Assembly (NCBI GenBank): GCA_030041495.1
Contig: JASHNT010000108.1
Location: 1 to 35,072 of the forward strand
DNA length: 35,072 bases
Source of the DNA: Bryobacteraceae bacterium
GTDB lineage: Bacteria > Acidobacteriota > Terriglobia > Bryobacterales > Bryobacteraceae
Reading direction: 5' to 3'
Positions within the stretch are counted from its first letter, which is position 1. Every line of letters starts with the position of its first letter. Shown piece by piece: positions 4,453 to 9,710 of this stretch. The notes under the pieces are model-generated. The model was given only the letters and a program-made list of their open reading frames with translations. It was not told where the DNA came from and made no database searches. Made by a program: the position numbers and the translations under genes.

Positions 4453-4878
4453 ATGCCCAGACCAGATTATATGTTATTGACCCGCAAGGTGGAGTTTTCC
4501 GCCTCTCACGTTTGCTCGAATCCGGCCTGGAGCCCGGCGGAGAATCTGCGTGTCTACGGCAACAACTCGAATCCCAACGGCCACGGCCACAACTACGTTC
4601 TGGAAGTAACCTTGGAGGGGGTTCCCGACCCTGTCACCGGGATGGTGTTCGACCTACGCGAACTGAAAGAAATCCTGAACCAGGAAGTGGTCGATCCGAT
4701 GGATCATCGCTTCCTCAACAGGGAAGTTCCGCCCTTTGACCGCGTGATCCCGACCACGGAAAATATCGCCGCCGAAATCTGGAAACGGCTGGAGGGCCGC
4801 GTGGTGCGCACCAACGCCAGGCTGCGCAACGTTCGCCTGTATGAGACGCCGGATCTTTACGTGGATTACGGAGGCTGA
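4453..4878 (+). CDS. 6-pyruvoyl-tetrahydropterin synthase homologue lacking the catalytic Cys
   Basis: A 141-residue PTPS-fold protein. I place the start at ATG 4453, not at the upstream in-frame region that overlaps the TlpA gene; ATG 4471 is an alternative giving 135 residues. Zinc ligands are His19 (FSASH), His44 and His46 (NGHGHNY). The Asp-His pair (Asp84-His85 in DPMDHRFLN) and Glu131 (LYETPD) are present. Aligned to mammalian PTPS (GKCNNPNGHGH), the catalytic Cys position is Asn38 (YGNNSNPNGHGH). The only Cys in the protein is Cys21. The overall sequence is closer to eukaryotic-type PTPS than to QueD. It is the first gene of an operon with a Cys-containing paralogue and folE. It may be a pterin-binding partner subunit or have altered chemistry; standard PTPS activity is doubtful. 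Confidence 0.85.
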   Translation: MPRPDYMLLTRKVEFSASHVCSNPAWSPAENLRVYGNNSNPNGHGHNYVLEVTLEGVPDPVTGMVFDLRELKEILNQEVVDPMDHRFLNREVPPFDRVIPTTENIAAEIWKRLEGRVVRTNARLRNVRLYETPDLYVDYGG

Positions 4879-4881
4879 CCG

Positions 4882-5292
4882 GTGCCACGCCTGACGCGCC
4901 GTTATCATTTCGCGGCCTCGCATCGCCTGGTCTCGCCCGCCTTGAGCGAAGAGGAAAATCGACGCCTGTACGGCAAATGCAACTATCCGCACGGCCACGG
5001 GCACGACTACACTCTGGAGGTTTCGGTGGAGGGTCCGCAAGACGCCGCGGGACAGATCGTGAATCGCGCGGAACTGGACGAGCTGGTCGATCTCCGGGTT
5101 CTGACGCTGGTGGATCACAAAAATTTAAATCTGGACGTTCCGGAGATGGAGGGTGCTGTTCCCACCACGGAAAATCTGGCGTCTTTCATAAAGAAGCGCT
5201 TGTGTGAGGGCTGGAATCTGCGGCCTCGCCTGGCGCGTATCAGGATCATTGAGACGGCTCGAAACACGTTCGAGCTGGAGGTTAACGGGTGA
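4882..5292 (+). CDS. 6-carboxy/6-pyruvoyl-tetrahydropterin synthase (QueD/PTPS family)
   Basis: A 136-residue member of the same family with all expected active-site residues. Zinc ligands are His14 (FAASH), His39 and His41 (PHGHGHDY). The catalytic Cys33 lies in GKCNYPHGH, giving the CxxxHGH motif. Asp78-His79 (LVDHKNLN) and Glu124 (IIETARN) are also present. It starts with GTG three bases after the stop of the previous paralogue and overlaps folE by 4 nt (GTGA). The substrate is dihydroneopterin triphosphate, the product of FolE. The product could be 6-carboxy-tetrahydropterin (queuosine route) or 6-pyruvoyl-tetrahydropterin (tetrahydrobiopterin-like route). No queC/queE or sepiapterin reductase lies nearby to decide between them. 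Confidence 0.9.
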
Positions 5293-5885
5293 AAAGCAAA
5301 GCGGTGGTAAAGGTGATGGCGCCTCCGGGGCCGAGCGTGGCCTCGCGGATGAAGGACGTGCTGGAGCTGCTGGGCGAAGACATCTCGCGCGAAGGATTGA
5401 TCCACACGCCGGAGCGCTACGAGAAAGCGATGCGCTTCCTGACGCGCGGCTACACCGAAAAGCTGGATGAGATTGTCAACGGCGCGCTGTACCATGTCAC
5501 TTGCGATGAGATGGTGATCGTGAAGGACATCGAATTCTTCAGCATGTGCGAGCATCATCTGCTGCCGTTCTTCGGCAAAATTCACGTGGCGTATCTGCCC
5601 CAGGACCGCGTCATCGGCTTGAGCAAAATTCCGCGCATCGTGAACATGTTCGCCCGGCGCTTGCAATTGCAGGAAAGGTTGACGCAGCAGGTGGCCGAAG
5701 CCGTGGAGACGGCGATCTCCCCGCGTGGGGTGGCCGTGATGGCTGAGGCGCGGCACTTTTGCATGATGATGCGCGGCGTGGAAAAACAGCATTCGGGCAC
5801 CGTCACCAGCACCATGCTCGGCCAATTCCGCTCCAATAAAGCCACTCGCGACGAATTCCTGGCGCTGGCTGCGCGCCCTGTGTGA
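5289..5885 (+). CDS. folE: GTP cyclohydrolase I
   Basis: A 198-residue enzyme that converts GTP to 7,8-dihydroneopterin triphosphate, the entry step to folate, queuosine and tetrahydropterins. Zinc ligands are Cys87 and His90 ([15 protein letters not shown]) and Cys158 ([11 protein letters not shown]). The [16 protein letters not shown] segment (residues 163-178) is the typical C-terminal signature. It starts with GTG, overlapping the stop of the upstream PTPS gene by 4 nt, so enzyme and next-step enzyme are translationally coupled. Length is slightly shorter than E. coli FolE (222 residues), mainly at the N-terminus. This gene fixes the function of the operon as pterin synthesis. Confidence 0.97.
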
Positions 5886-6298: not shown

Positions 6299-6976
6299 AT
6301 GAGGCGCCGCATCGCGATTGCTCTTACCGGTGCAGTGTGGTTTTGCTCCGCCGCTCGCGCCGATTCGCTAGACGACGTGCTGGCCCGCATGGACGCCGCT
6401 GCCAAACAGTTCCAATCCTATTCGGCGAGCGTGAAGCGGGTCGATTACGTCAAGGTGGTCGATTCCTACGACGATTCGGCCGGCTTCATACGCCTGAAGC
6501 GTGCCAAAAACGGCGTAGTCGGAATCATGGACATTACCGCAGGCCCCGACCATACCATCACGCATTTTGACGGGCCCATCGTGGAGCGCTATCTCCCGAA
6601 GGCCAATACCATTGAGCAGTACAACGCAAAGAAATCGGCGGCCACGATGGATCAAATGCTGCTGCTGGGATTCGCCGTGACGCGCGACGAAATCAAGCGC
6701 GACTATGATGTAAAGCTGGTGGGAGCGGAAACCGTGAATGGCGCGGAAACCACGCACATCGCGCTGACGCCGAAGTCGTCTGAAGCCCTAAAATACGTCA
6801 AGACCATCGACCTTTGGATCGACGCTAACGGCCACGCTATCCGCCAGAAAGGCACCGAGCCGGGCGGCAACTACCACCTGGCAACCTTTTCGGATCTGAA
6901 GGTCAACCCTTCGATCCCCGCTTCAGAGTTCGAGTTGAACGCGCCCAAGGGCGTTAAGGTCGCGAAGGAAAACTAG
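6299..6976 (+). CDS. LolA-like periplasmic protein
   Basis: A 225-residue exported protein. The start is ATG 6299, followed by signal peptide MRRRIAIALTGAVWFCSAARA; a longer open frame exists upstream but would bury the signal sequence. The mature protein begins DSLDDVLARMDAAAKQFQSY and ends with FSDLKVNPSIPASEFELNAP, the beginning and end pattern of outer-membrane lipoprotein-sorting (LolA/LolB-fold) proteins. The middle includes KTIDLWIDANGHAIRQ, a typical paired-strand segment. These proteins bind lipids or lipoprotein acyl chains in the periplasm; a specific cargo cannot be assigned. It ends only 4 bp before the convergent gene at 6981. Confidence 0.7.
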   Translation: MRRRIAIALTGAVWFCSAARADSLDDVLARMDAAAKQFQSYSASVKRVDYVKVVDSYDDSAGFIRLKRAKNGVVGIMDITAGPDHTITHFDGPIVERYLPKANTIEQYNAKKSAATMDQMLLLGFAVTRDEIKRDYDVKLVGAETVNGAETTHIALTPKSSEALKYVKTIDLWIDANGHAIRQKGTEPGGNYHLATFSDLKVNPSIPASEFELNAPKGVKVAKEN

Positions 6977-6980
6977 GCCT

Positions 6981-8045
6981 TCATCGCGCCTTCGTGGACA
7001 TCCCCTCTTCCCACGTACTCCAGCCGGAGAGCATGCCGTAGGGCACCTGCTCCAGCAGCGCCTCCACGCGATGGATCTTACCGCCCTGGATCTTGAACAG
7101 TTCGGCGATTTCCCAGGTCCACGGCCGGACGGGACCGTTTGAAACCTGCTTGCCGCCGGACATTTTGTAGGTCCGGTACTTGCCGGACGGGTGGTCGAAG
7201 AAGGCGAAGCTGAACACCAGCCCGCGCTCGGGATCCACAGCGACAAACCGCCGGTCACGGATACGAGTGACGAAGTGGAAATAGCCGGAGGCGAACTGCG
7301 CCCTGCATCCGAGGGCCGCGGGGTTGAAGGCGTTCGGGTCCGGCGGAGGTGCGGCTTGTTTCGGCGCGCCGCCTCTTGCGCCGCGCCCGCCCGGCTCCGC
7401 TTGCCCGGCAGCCGAGCCGGACACGCGGAAATTGGGATTGTTGGTTGTCTCGAGACCGTCCTCCAGACGATCGCAATCGTCGGCGAAGAAGCTATAGTCG
7501 CCCTTGCCATCGTTGTTCTGCAGCGCGCTGAAGTAAAGATTCGCGGTCTTGGTCAGATCCATCCGCGAAACGCGCTCCGCCGGCGGAATCATGCTCAGGA
7601 ACACCGGATTCGGACTCCCGAGCTTCTCCATCTCTGCCGCGCCATTGGTTCCGTTCAAGCCGGTGCGCACGACGAACAGCTCGATTTCGCTGATCTGGCG
7701 GTTGTCGATCTTCAGACGAAACGCCACGCTGACCGGATGCGTGGCTTCGGTCATGGTGGTGAGCAGCGCGACCTCGCGGGCTTGTACATCATCGACAAAC
7801 AGGCGGTATTTGCCCTTGCCGGTGGCGCTGCGCCAGAAGCCGTCGCCCGGATCGAGCCGCTGGCCGTTCTCCGTGTTCTTCAAGCGCGGCGAAAGCGGGA
7901 GCCGCTTCGGATCGTGCGCGATCAGCGCGTCCATATACTGATCGGCGAAGGATTCCAGGCACGCCCGGTCGCAAGGCGCGGATTTGGATTGCGCGGAAGT
8001 GGCCGCCGCGAAGGCCGCCATCATGAGCATAATTGCGGGTTTCAT
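6981..8045 (-). CDS. Exported protein, tandem paralogue B of a two-gene duplication
   Basis: A 354-residue protein. The true start is ATG 8045, with signal peptide MKPAIMLMMAAFAAATSAQS; an open frame further upstream overlaps the neighbour and is not used. The mature protein begins with CDRACLESFADQYMDALIAHDP and contains ENGQRLDPGDGFW. It also has FADDCDRLEDG, FHFVTRIRDRRFVAVDPE and TWEIAELFKIQGGKIHRVEA. It is collinear with the protein at 8042-9034, sharing long identical runs such as RDRR.VAVDPERGLVF. An insert of about 20 Gly/Ala/Pro-rich residues lies around GQAEPGGRGARGG. The fold is probably NTF2/SnoaL-like repeats (DUF8021-like, from memory). ATG overlaps the upstream stop by 4 nt. 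No catalytic assignment is possible. Confidence 0.75.
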   Translation of the reverse strand: MKPAIMLMMAAFAAATSAQSKSAPCDRACLESFADQYMDALIAHDPKRLPLSPRLKNTENGQRLDPGDGFWRSATGKGKYRLFVDDVQAREVALLTTMTEATHPVSVAFRLKIDNRQISEIELFVVRTGLNGTNGAAEMEKLGSPNPVFLSMIPPAERVSRMDLTKTANLYFSALQNNDGKGDYSFFADDCDRLEDGLETTNNPNFRVSGSAAGQAEPGGRGARGGAPKQAAPPPDPNAFNPAALGCRAQFASGYFHFVTRIRDRRFVAVDPERGLVFSFAFFDHPSGKYRTYKMSGGKQVSNGPVRPWTWEIAELFKIQGGKIHRVEALLEQVPYGMLSGWSTWEEGMSTKAR

Positions 8046-9034
8046 TTGTTCGAGATATCCTGCGCGCGATCCGAAAGACCGTCTTCCCAATTGCTCCAGC
8101 CCGAAGGCATGCCGTAGGGAACCCGCTCCATCGTCGCCTCGATCTGGTGGATCAGGCCCTTGCGGATCTGGAACAGCTCGGCGATCTCCCAGGTCCAAAG
8201 CTGATCCGGGCCGGCGGTGACCGTGCGGCCGTCGGGAGTTTTGAACGTTCGTGTATTACCGGCCGAGTGATCGAAAAATCCGAAGGCGAAGACCAAGCCG
8301 CGCTCGGGATCCACGGCCACGTAACGCCGGTCGCGAATGCGGGTGACGAAGTGGATCAGGCCGGATTCGAACTGCTCGCGGCAACTCCACTGGCCCGAAT
8401 ACATGTTGGCGGTTTTGGGATCGGGGCGCTTTTGCCCCAGCGGAGTCGGCTGGTTGGTGGAGTTGCTGCCGTTTTCGATGCGATTGCAATCGTCGGCGAA
8501 CGGATACACCCCTTTGCCGTCGTTTTTCTGCATACCGGAGAAGTACATATTCGCGACCTTGACCAGGTCCTCGCGCGACATGCGCTCGGCCGGCGGAACT
8601 TCATCGGTCCACTTGTAGCCGATGCGCTCGAAGCCTTGCGCGGAGCTGGGACTGCGCTGGATGAAGGTCTCGATTTCGGCAATCTGGCGGTTCGCGATTT
8701 TCAGACGCAGCGCGATCATCGCCGGCGCCTTCTCCTCACTAATGCTCCCGAGAAATGCGACCTCCTGCGCTTCAACATCGGTCACAAACAGGCGATAGGT
8801 CCCTTTACCATCCATCGTGTTCCACAAGCCGTCGCCGAGGTCCAGGCGCTGGCCGTTCTCGGTGAACTTCGCGCTTTTGGCAATCGGCGCCTTGGAAGGA
8901 TCGTGCGCGATCACCGCGTCGAGGTAGCGATCCACGAAGGATTCCAGGCAAGGGCGGCCGCACGCCGGCCCTTTGGTTTGAGCGGCCAACGCCGCGGCGG
9001 CCGCGAGCGCAGCCGCAATCGAATAAAATCGCAT
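8042..9034 (-). CDS. Exported protein, tandem paralogue A of a two-gene duplication
   Basis: A 330-residue protein from ATG 9034 with an Ala-rich signal peptide (MRFYSIAAALAAAAALAAQ). The mature N-terminus has a Cys pair (ACGRPCLESFVDRYLDA). Other conserved blocks shared with its neighbour are ENGQRLDLGDGLW, YRLFVTDVEAQEVA, PPAERMSREDLVKVANMYFS and FADDCNRIENGS. Further shared blocks are IHFVTRIRDRRYVAVDPE and RVPYGMPSGWSNWEDG. The four conserved Cys outside the signal peptide suggest disulfides in the periplasm. The AHDP-x-KAP N-terminal region and the IHQIEATMERVPYGM tail resemble SnoaL-like/NTF2 modules in which the cavity binds a small polyketide- or steroid-like ligand. That is an analogy, not evidence of substrate. 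Confidence 0.75.
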   Translation of the reverse strand: MRFYSIAAALAAAAALAAQTKGPACGRPCLESFVDRYLDAVIAHDPSKAPIAKSAKFTENGQRLDLGDGLWNTMDGKGTYRLFVTDVEAQEVAFLGSISEEKAPAMIALRLKIANRQIAEIETFIQRSPSSAQGFERIGYKWTDEVPPAERMSREDLVKVANMYFSGMQKNDGKGVYPFADDCNRIENGSNSTNQPTPLGQKRPDPKTANMYSGQWSCREQFESGLIHFVTRIRDRRYVAVDPERGLVFAFGFFDHSAGNTRTFKTPDGRTVTAGPDQLWTWEIAELFQIRKGLIHQIEATMERVPYGMPSGWSNWEDGLSDRAQDISNK

Positions 9035-9056
9035 GGCGCATCCTTTGGTGTGTGAT

Positions 9057-9710
9057 TTATTTCCGGAAGCTCTCATCCATTGGCTTCTGATCGAGCCAGG
9101 CCCGGCCCAACGCGTAAAGACGATCGGCGTCGGCCCCGCGCAAGCCGGGCATGTTGGTCTTCACCGGAAATCCGAGTCCGGCTTGCAGGTACGCCAGGTG
9201 CTGGTAGCCGACCGGGTACCGCTTCAGGATCTCCGGGTTGAGCTTCAAGGTCTGCGAGGGATCGACCGGGTCAATGCGGTCCTTCTCATAGAACAAGCGC
9301 CGCAGCACGATTCCCCATCTGCCCTTGCGCTTCTCCAGGAAGTCGTAAAAACGGCCCACGCACAACACGTCGCACAGCACGCCGTCTACGGGAGCGCGTT
9401 GCGCAATACTCATCTTTGTTTGGGCGATGGCGCGGTTGGTTTGGGCGATGGCGCGGTTGCGGGCGATATCGATGGTGCAGCCGCCCAGAAAGTGTAGGAT
9501 GTTGACTCCCTTTTCCATGCCGGCTTTGCTGATGGCGGCGAACTCTTCGTGCGTGCCTTGGAACCAGGTGGCCATCATATAGCCGTCCTCGTGCCAGACG
9601 GTGCGAAAGCGCTCCCAGTCGCCTGCATCGCGATATAGCACCCAGTTCTCGATGATCTCGCGAATCGCGAGGCGCTGGAGCAAATTCTTGGGAAGCGTTG
9701 CGATAGACAT
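9057..9710 (-). CDS. SnoaL-like (NTF2-fold) protein
   Basis: A 217-residue protein without a signal peptide, from ATG 9710. The N-terminal 140 residues match the SnoaL-like pattern: helix LAIREIIENWVLYRDAGDWERF, then TVWHEDGYMMATWFQGTHEEF, then strand LCVGRFYDFLEKRKGRWGI and LRRLFYEKDRIDPVD. The family includes polyketide cyclases, ketosteroid isomerase-like enzymes and dehydratases. The C-terminal ~70 residues (RYPVGYQHLAYLQAGLGFPV onward) are a tail seen in many soil-bacterial members. An in-frame 21-bp tandem duplication (9418-9459) repeats seven residues, NRAIAQT, in the middle of the domain. The gene is 5 nt downstream of the 9716-10489 gene, in one operon. Confidence 0.72.
   Translation of the reverse strand: MSIATLPKNLLQRLAIREIIENWVLYRDAGDWERFRTVWHEDGYMMATWFQGTHEEFAAISKAGMEKGVNILHFLGGCTIDIARNRAIAQTNRAIAQTKMSIAQRAPVDGVLCDVLCVGRFYDFLEKRKGRWGIVLRRLFYEKDRIDPVDPSQTLKLNPEILKRYPVGYQHLAYLQAGLGFPVKTNMPGLRGADADRLYALGRAWLDQKPMDESFRK
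9418..9459 (-). repeat. Perfect 21-bp in-frame tandem duplication
   Basis: 9418-9438 and 9439-9459 are identical 21-bp units inside the SnoaL-like gene. On the minus strand they encode NRAIAQT twice, followed by KMSIAQ, a third degenerate echo. Being a multiple of three, the duplication keeps the frame. It looks recent because the copies are identical. Confidence 0.95.

Follow-up and report, generated by a model that had tools for sequence, protein, structure and literature searches.

What does a PTPS paralogue do once its canonical catalytic Cys is gone, when a copy with every canonical residue is encoded directly behind it? The question is raised by a stretch of 35,072 nucleotides from a Bryobacteraceae genome (contig JASHNT010000108.1 of assembly GCA_030041495.1), hereafter the window, in which two PTPS paralogues, copy A and copy B, form one tight operon with folE (Table 1). 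Only three bases separate the stop of A from the start of B, and B and folE share four (GTGA, 5289-5292). The reading frame of A is also open from an ATG at 4453, from which its residues are numbered here; ATG 4471 (Met7) is the likely start, since in several relatives (L009, L012, L013, L015) in-frame stops lie just 5' of that Met. Translation, with a check of the numbering, gives His19, Asn38, His44, His46, Asp84-His85 and Glu131 in A, and His14, Cys33, His39, His41, Asp78-His79, Glu97 and Glu124 in B. The two copies are 45% identical across 125 residues, and no third PF01242 match was found besides them in the window genome, the assembly of which is 98.2% complete. The initial annotation had described tandem PTPS paralogues with Asn38 in A and Cys33 in B, next to folE; translation and the PF01242 scores confirm this arrangement, and its residue list for A and its Cys33 of B proved exact. 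Elsewhere in the window (6981-9076, minus strand), two adjoining ORFs of 405 and 344 amino acids resemble tandem paralogues of each other and have the stretch CxxxCLESFxDxYxDAxIAHDP in common.

Table 1 Features of the A-B-folE operon in the window; counts refer to the nearest-relative loci (best 80 of 564 confirmed stretches).
Feature	Position	Strand	Basis
Copy A, PTPS paralogue without the canonical Cys, proposed Asp-His donor	4471..4878	+	Pfam match, translation
Cys21 codon of A	4513..4515	+	Present in 31/31 Cys38-less A copies (best 80 of 564)
Asn38 codon of A, canonical catalytic Cys site	4564..4566	+	Translation, alignment
Asp84-His85 of A	4702..4707	+	Invariant in 78/78 A copies (best 80 of 564)
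Copy B, PTPS paralogue, all canonical residues in the window genome, proposed zinc and Cys donor	4882..5292	+	
Cys33 codon of B, catalytic Cys	4978..4980	+	Invariant in 78/78 B copies (best 80 of 564)
Asp78-His79 of B	5113..5118	+	Intact here; intact in 46/78 B copies (best 80 of 564)
folE, GTP cyclohydrolase I	5289..5885	+	3' of A-B on the same strand at 78/78 loci (best 80 of 564)

Both copies score above the PF01242 cut-off of 22.4 bits (A, 116.8; B, 89.8), and both possess the three zinc-binding His residues (His19/44/46 in A, His14/39/41 in B) together with the Asp-His pair of PTPS-II. The PTPS-II type has the motif CxxxxxHGH and the PTPS-III type the motif ExxHGH, in which the Glu stands three residues before HGH. 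The former is present in B (Cys33) and absent from A (Asn38). Conversion of A to a PTPS-III by a moved Glu was rejected, the ExxHGH position of A being Pro41. Scores of both copies fell below the cut-offs of the QueD/PTPS-I model TIGR03367 (67.1 bits for A and 50.2 for B; cut-off 89.25) and of the 6PTHBS model TIGR00039 (81.8 and 61.9 bits; cut-off 125.5). Rat and human PTPS were the closest solved sequences to A and B. Single-chain structure models, computed from alignments of 36 (A) and 37 (B) rows, reached a pLDDT of 94.2 for A and 91.2 for B, and in each case the best match was an animal PTPS: rat 1gtq for A (TM 0.91, 46% identity) and human 3i2b for B (TM 0.79-0.80, 40% identity). In the model of A a helix (28-39) passes through the loop that formerly carried the Cys; in that of B the loop is a low-confidence coil (residues 31-40 average 65). 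Fold, sequence, the three zinc His, the long loop before HGH and the Asp-His pair are all shared with animal PTPS-II (rat 1b66/1gtq, human 3i2b). However, the animal enzyme is described as a hexamer of identical subunits (PMC10767420), each chain having all residues, whereas the catalytic residues of A and B are apparently split over two genes.

An adjoining A-B pair occurs in 21 of the 23 genomes of the window's genus, and the two genomes without it are incomplete, G001 (82%) giving no match and G003 (65%) distant copies only. Site 38 of the 21 A copies is occupied by Asn (16), Ala (4) or Asp (1) and in no case by Cys, by which a sequencing error is rejected, as is an isolated mutation, the caveat of the initial annotation. 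Its proposed check, whether Asn38 is conserved in a clade, gave a negative answer; it is the absence of Cys that is conserved. Likewise, the proposed new dihydroneopterin triphosphate reaction of an Asn enzyme is not supported, as residue 38 varies (A, N, G, T, S, D, E), and the idea that Asn is a new, conserved catalytic residue was rejected on the composition of the 31 Cys38-less A copies among the nearest relatives (Ala 17, Asn 8, other 6; best 80 of 564). New Asn chemistry in A is unlikely. The Asn at site 38 looks incidental, and A would seem to contribute catalytic residues instead of being a dead subunit. In f2, another family of the same class (L033-L059), all 27 A copies have Cys38 and Tyr21.

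A profile search of genome contigs with a 13-sequence A alignment yielded 564 confirmed stretches, the best 80 of which were taken as the nearest relatives. Bryobacterales, Bryobacteraceae and Sulfopaludibacter are closest, followed by Sulfotelmatobacter, Granulicella and other Acidobacteriaceae; the set overlaps in part with the genus and phylum genome sample, and the two sets are not independent. Both copies are complete at 78 of the 80 loci. Residue 21 served to distinguish the copies, being Cys or Tyr in A and Leu in B; the rule failed only for L206, with a cut B, and L238, with a broken one, and both loci were left out. A precedes B on one strand at all 78 loci. In these 78 pairs (best 80 of 564), A retains Asp-His in 78, the three zinc His in 77 and Cys38 in 47, and B retains the three zinc His, the Cys and Glu131 (A numbering) in 78 and an intact Asp-His pair in 46. 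Arg20, Cys38 and Thr132 (A numbering) are invariant in B yet free in A; Asp84, His85 and Arg86 are among the positions invariant in A yet free in B. The 31 A copies without Cys38 belong to Bryobacterales-like loci, some of them labelled Acidobacteriaceae, Terriglobia or Acidobacteria (e.g. L212, L217, L220).

Sorting the same 78 pairs (best 80 of 564) by Cys38 of A and Asp-His of B gave 28 pairs with both, 19 with the Cys alone, 18 with Asp-His alone and 13 with neither, and an odds ratio of 1.06, calculated by hand, indicates no association between the two losses. In the pairs with neither (13, among them L217) both chains are incomplete and no chain has a full triad, yet the Cys of B and the Asp-His of A complement each other. 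Eleven of them are strict cases; L201 and L215, in which B has a mild Glu-His, count against this reading. The same triad half was missing from both chains in none of the 78.

The losses are one-sided also on the trees. The B tree shows at least 19 changes of Asp-His, a pair that is constant in all 78 copies of A (best 80 of 564), while Cys38 changed once on the A tree within the class and is constant in B. That all 19 changes should fall in B has a probability of p ~3e-5 under a crude equal-risk model; the mean p-distance is larger in B (0.46) than in A (0.35). Mean p-distances were used here, and a branch-length A/B ratio was dropped as it conflicted with the stronger conservation of A. In a tree of 184 rows, one half (support 88) holds 82 rows, all A-type, and the other (support 88) holds 95, made up of B-type and canonical sequences and rat PTPS. 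Seven rows lie outside both halves: two are first domains from triple fusions and five are B-type or canonical. The second domains from these fusions have A-like residues but fall in the B half. Both observations count against the composite enzyme proposed below. Long branches in the PTPS tree make single placements unsure.

Across the phylum, 396 genomes were drawn, 272 of them with a match, and long-loop PTPS was studied in 100 (21 from the genus plus another 79) that were picked for strong or multiple matches and not at random. Two domains were found in 79 of these 100, three in 2 and one in 19. Among the 79 two-domain genomes, both copies are complete in 35, and 13 are complementary, one copy lacking the Cys and the other an intact Asp-His; no pair lacking the same triad half in both copies was found among them. 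The complementary cases include natural A-B fusions in one frame (G035, G146, G233, G249, G297, G027), the first domain of which has lost the Cys and kept Asp-His while the second has kept the zinc His and the Cys and lost Asp-His (in G027 the His alone). In draft genomes G198, G077, G120, G213 and G299 the two complementary copies lie on different contigs; here B lacks His85, and A lacks Glu131 as well and has Tyr for the first His of HGH, to which G213 and G299 add a His19-to-Arg replacement in A. G178 has a complementary adjacent pair, and G004, of the window's genus, combines Asp38 in A with Glu-Tyr in B. In two triple PTPS fusions, L096 (G394) and L166 (G376), all three zinc His and the Cys are present in the last domain only, and Asp-His is retained by the first two. 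Of the genomes with a single long-loop PTPS, 18 of 19 keep every residue. The exception, G369, has a lone B-like copy with Asp-Cys instead of Asp-His (His85 gone), for which no A-type partner was found, also with an A query; this counts against a division of labour between A and B, as does L130 (G086), an A-like copy with neither Cys nor Asp-His that lies ~1.2 kb from a complete copy.

We consider it quite probable, on this residue pattern, that A and B together form a single PTPS-type enzyme, an obligate hetero-oligomer with composite active sites. Pairing, gene order and the one-sided residue losses are observed; from them we infer a physical A-B complex, with its stoichiometry and the way in which its chains face each other. 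Each working site would sit between subunits. B would supply the zinc site (His14, His39, His41), Cys33 as the base and the Glu that binds the pterin, and A would supply Asp84-His85, which would activate Cys33 of B; folE of the same operon would provide dihydroneopterin triphosphate. The opposite interface, between the zinc site of A and the Asp-His of B, would be a spare, leaving A free to lose Cys38 and B free to lose Asp-His in many relatives. Composite sites with a spare reverse interface would explain why A lacks its Cys and B its Asp-His, why the gene order is fixed and why fusions occur. Work by Ploom in 1999 is said to have assigned Cys42 of PTPS to one chain and Asp88-His89 to the neighbouring chain. 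An "intersubunit catalytic triad" is named in the title of Burgisser 1995 on PTPS, and the enzyme is described as a hexamer with sites between three monomers (PMC7546909). Since PTPS has been described with an intersubunit triad, and the losses in A and B are reciprocal, the obligate composite-site hetero-oligomer appears to be the best explanation. Further observations count against it: B of the window is complete and could work alone, as are 46 of the 78 nearest B copies (best 80 of 564), and the zinc ligands and both Glu residues stay conserved in the Cys38-less A copies of the class, which a spare site would not require.

The completeness of the window's B is also what speaks for A as an accessory or regulatory pseudo-subunit that stabilises or tunes a B-centred enzyme and donates no catalytic residue. 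Pseudoenzyme partners of this kind are described for trypanosomatid deoxyhypusine synthase and AdoMetDC, the former likewise being an active enzyme made of an impaired and an inactive paralogue, but one of another family, whereas the losses in A and B are reciprocal halves of one triad. We regard a pseudo-subunit as improbable. Asp84-His85-Arg86 of A is invariant in 78 of 78 copies and the Asp-His of B is not intact in 32 of 78 (best 80 of 564), and those 32 B copies would have no intact Asp-His pair without A, which makes A the probable donor of half the triad. Of the hetero-oligomer with a non-catalytic subunit that had been suggested for this locus, the hetero-oligomer therefore agrees with the residue pattern and the non-catalytic role of A does not.

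A parallel to composite sites of A and B in the same fold class is offered by bimodular QueF, a T-fold enzyme in which active-site residues are described as split over two domains after duplication, with the site between the domains (PMC5372742); it is, however, one polypeptide of another family with another reaction, while A and B are two genes. Among the papers listed in searches of a mostly open-access literature on heteromeric, intersubunit, paralogous or acidobacterial PTPS, none describes a heteromeric PTPS. If the composite-site reading is correct, one enzyme of soil acidobacteria has turned into two mutually dependent subunits through reciprocal loss of intersubunit triad halves, and the stages would be visible side by side: both copies complete, one degenerate, both degenerate, the zinc site lost and the genes fused. 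The inter-chain mechanism of PTPS would become testable on natural mutants, and a paired-gene annotation rule would cover copies that motif schemes leave unclassified; for sequences without a motif-based class, published annotation went no further than "PTPS family" (PMC5041015).

Cys21 of A, two residues past the zinc ligand His19, was absent from the initial annotation and is present in all 21 genus A copies. In the nearest relatives (best 80 of 564) it occurs in every one of the 31 A copies without Cys38 and in none of the 47 with it. This exchange, together with the zinc ligands and Glu131 retained by A, is what could be expected of a separate enzyme, with a nucleophile relocated to Cys21, residual activity or new dihydroneopterin triphosphate chemistry. 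In Plasmodium PTPS-III, also a PTPS without the canonical Cys, replacement of Cys by Glu is described as altering the product and Glu as serving as the base; the E38L variant gave no detectable product, and E38Q, an amide like Asn, still formed some conventional pterin product, though less of it (PMC2229834). Some activity of the Asn38 site of its own is therefore conceivable, which counts against a purely composite site. A differs from the Plasmodium enzyme in lacking a Glu at that position and in the variability of its Cys site. A separate enzyme nevertheless has little probability in our estimation. Residue 38 varies freely, and there are A-type copies elsewhere in the phylum that have lost Cys38 and have no Cys21. 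Moreover, Cys21 as a moved nucleophile is disfavoured, since it would need the Asp-His of B and persists in 13 of the 31 pairs whose B has no intact Asp-His. Cys21 may instead be a fourth zinc ligand, a guess prompted by the conserved zinc ligands and by L211, in which A has lost His19 and kept Cys21 and the other two zinc His.

Returning to the proposed composite enzyme of A and B, its product may be 6-pyruvoyl- or 6-carboxy-tetrahydropterin. The invariable folE (78 of 78 loci) and an SDR-family gene 3' of folE in 24 of 78 (best 80 of 564) hint at a tetrahydrobiopterin-like route. The SDR lies within 230 bases of the end of the folE match at 21 of these loci and at 653-1011 bases at three; the other two of the 26 tblastn matches (L210, L234) lie elsewhere, and some loci end too early to show an SDR. 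One example is the SDR-family oxidoreductase at 6367-7269 (plus strand) of L249. The name sepiapterin reductase was absent among the best 60 of 279 PDB matches of the SDR, and a role of the SDR as a sepiapterin reductase-like partner is only suggestive. Within the genus, 14 of 23 genomes, that of the window included, encode a member of the aromatic amino acid hydroxylase family, and all 23 encode pterin carbinolamine dehydratase.

The window genome also encodes queF, and a queC above its NCBIfam cut-off that adjoins a queE-like gene (G000:C41:24123-25483, L090), the best matches of which are queE models with scores below their cut-offs; no QueD-type PTPS was found there. As queC, the queE-like gene and queF are present and no third PTPS was found, 6-carboxytetrahydropterin may be a further product of the window pair, provided that the 98.2% complete assembly has not missed a gene. 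The same genes, with the hydroxylase family member, would fit A and B as separate enzymes, each in its own pathway (say, a PTPS-II-like and a QueD-like one), drawing on a common folE. We hold this to be very improbable: a more distant PTPS is also present in 18 of the 21 pair-bearing genus genomes, the 13 of 78 pairs with neither triad complete (best 80 of 564) could hardly be two independent enzymes, and natural A-B fusions exist. A bolder form of the composite-site reading, possible but on balance doubtful, is that the PTPS of acidobacteria forms an obligate heterohexamer of A and B, which has three composite sites where there would otherwise be six; that in Cys-less, Bryobacterales-like A the catalytic zinc has become a closed His3-Cys site, with Cys21 as fourth ligand and a structural or redox-sensing role; and that in the window lineage, for which no third PTPS was found, the complex also feeds queuosine synthesis.

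The more distant PTPS copy occurs in 19 of the 23 genus genomes and carries CExxHGH in all 12 copies read (11 genomes). We take these copies to be PTPS-I/III-like, by the name and motif of Phillips 2012. They share the PF01242 family with A and B but differ in having a short loop and both Cys and Glu, and in lying elsewhere in the genome. FolB was found in three of the 23 genus genomes (G000, G014, G022), that is, in two of the four without the distant PTPS (G000, G014) and in one of the 19 with it, which suggests that the distant PTPS serves folate synthesis where FolB is absent. The distribution of the two within the genus has the appearance of an exchange of folate-pathway enzymes.
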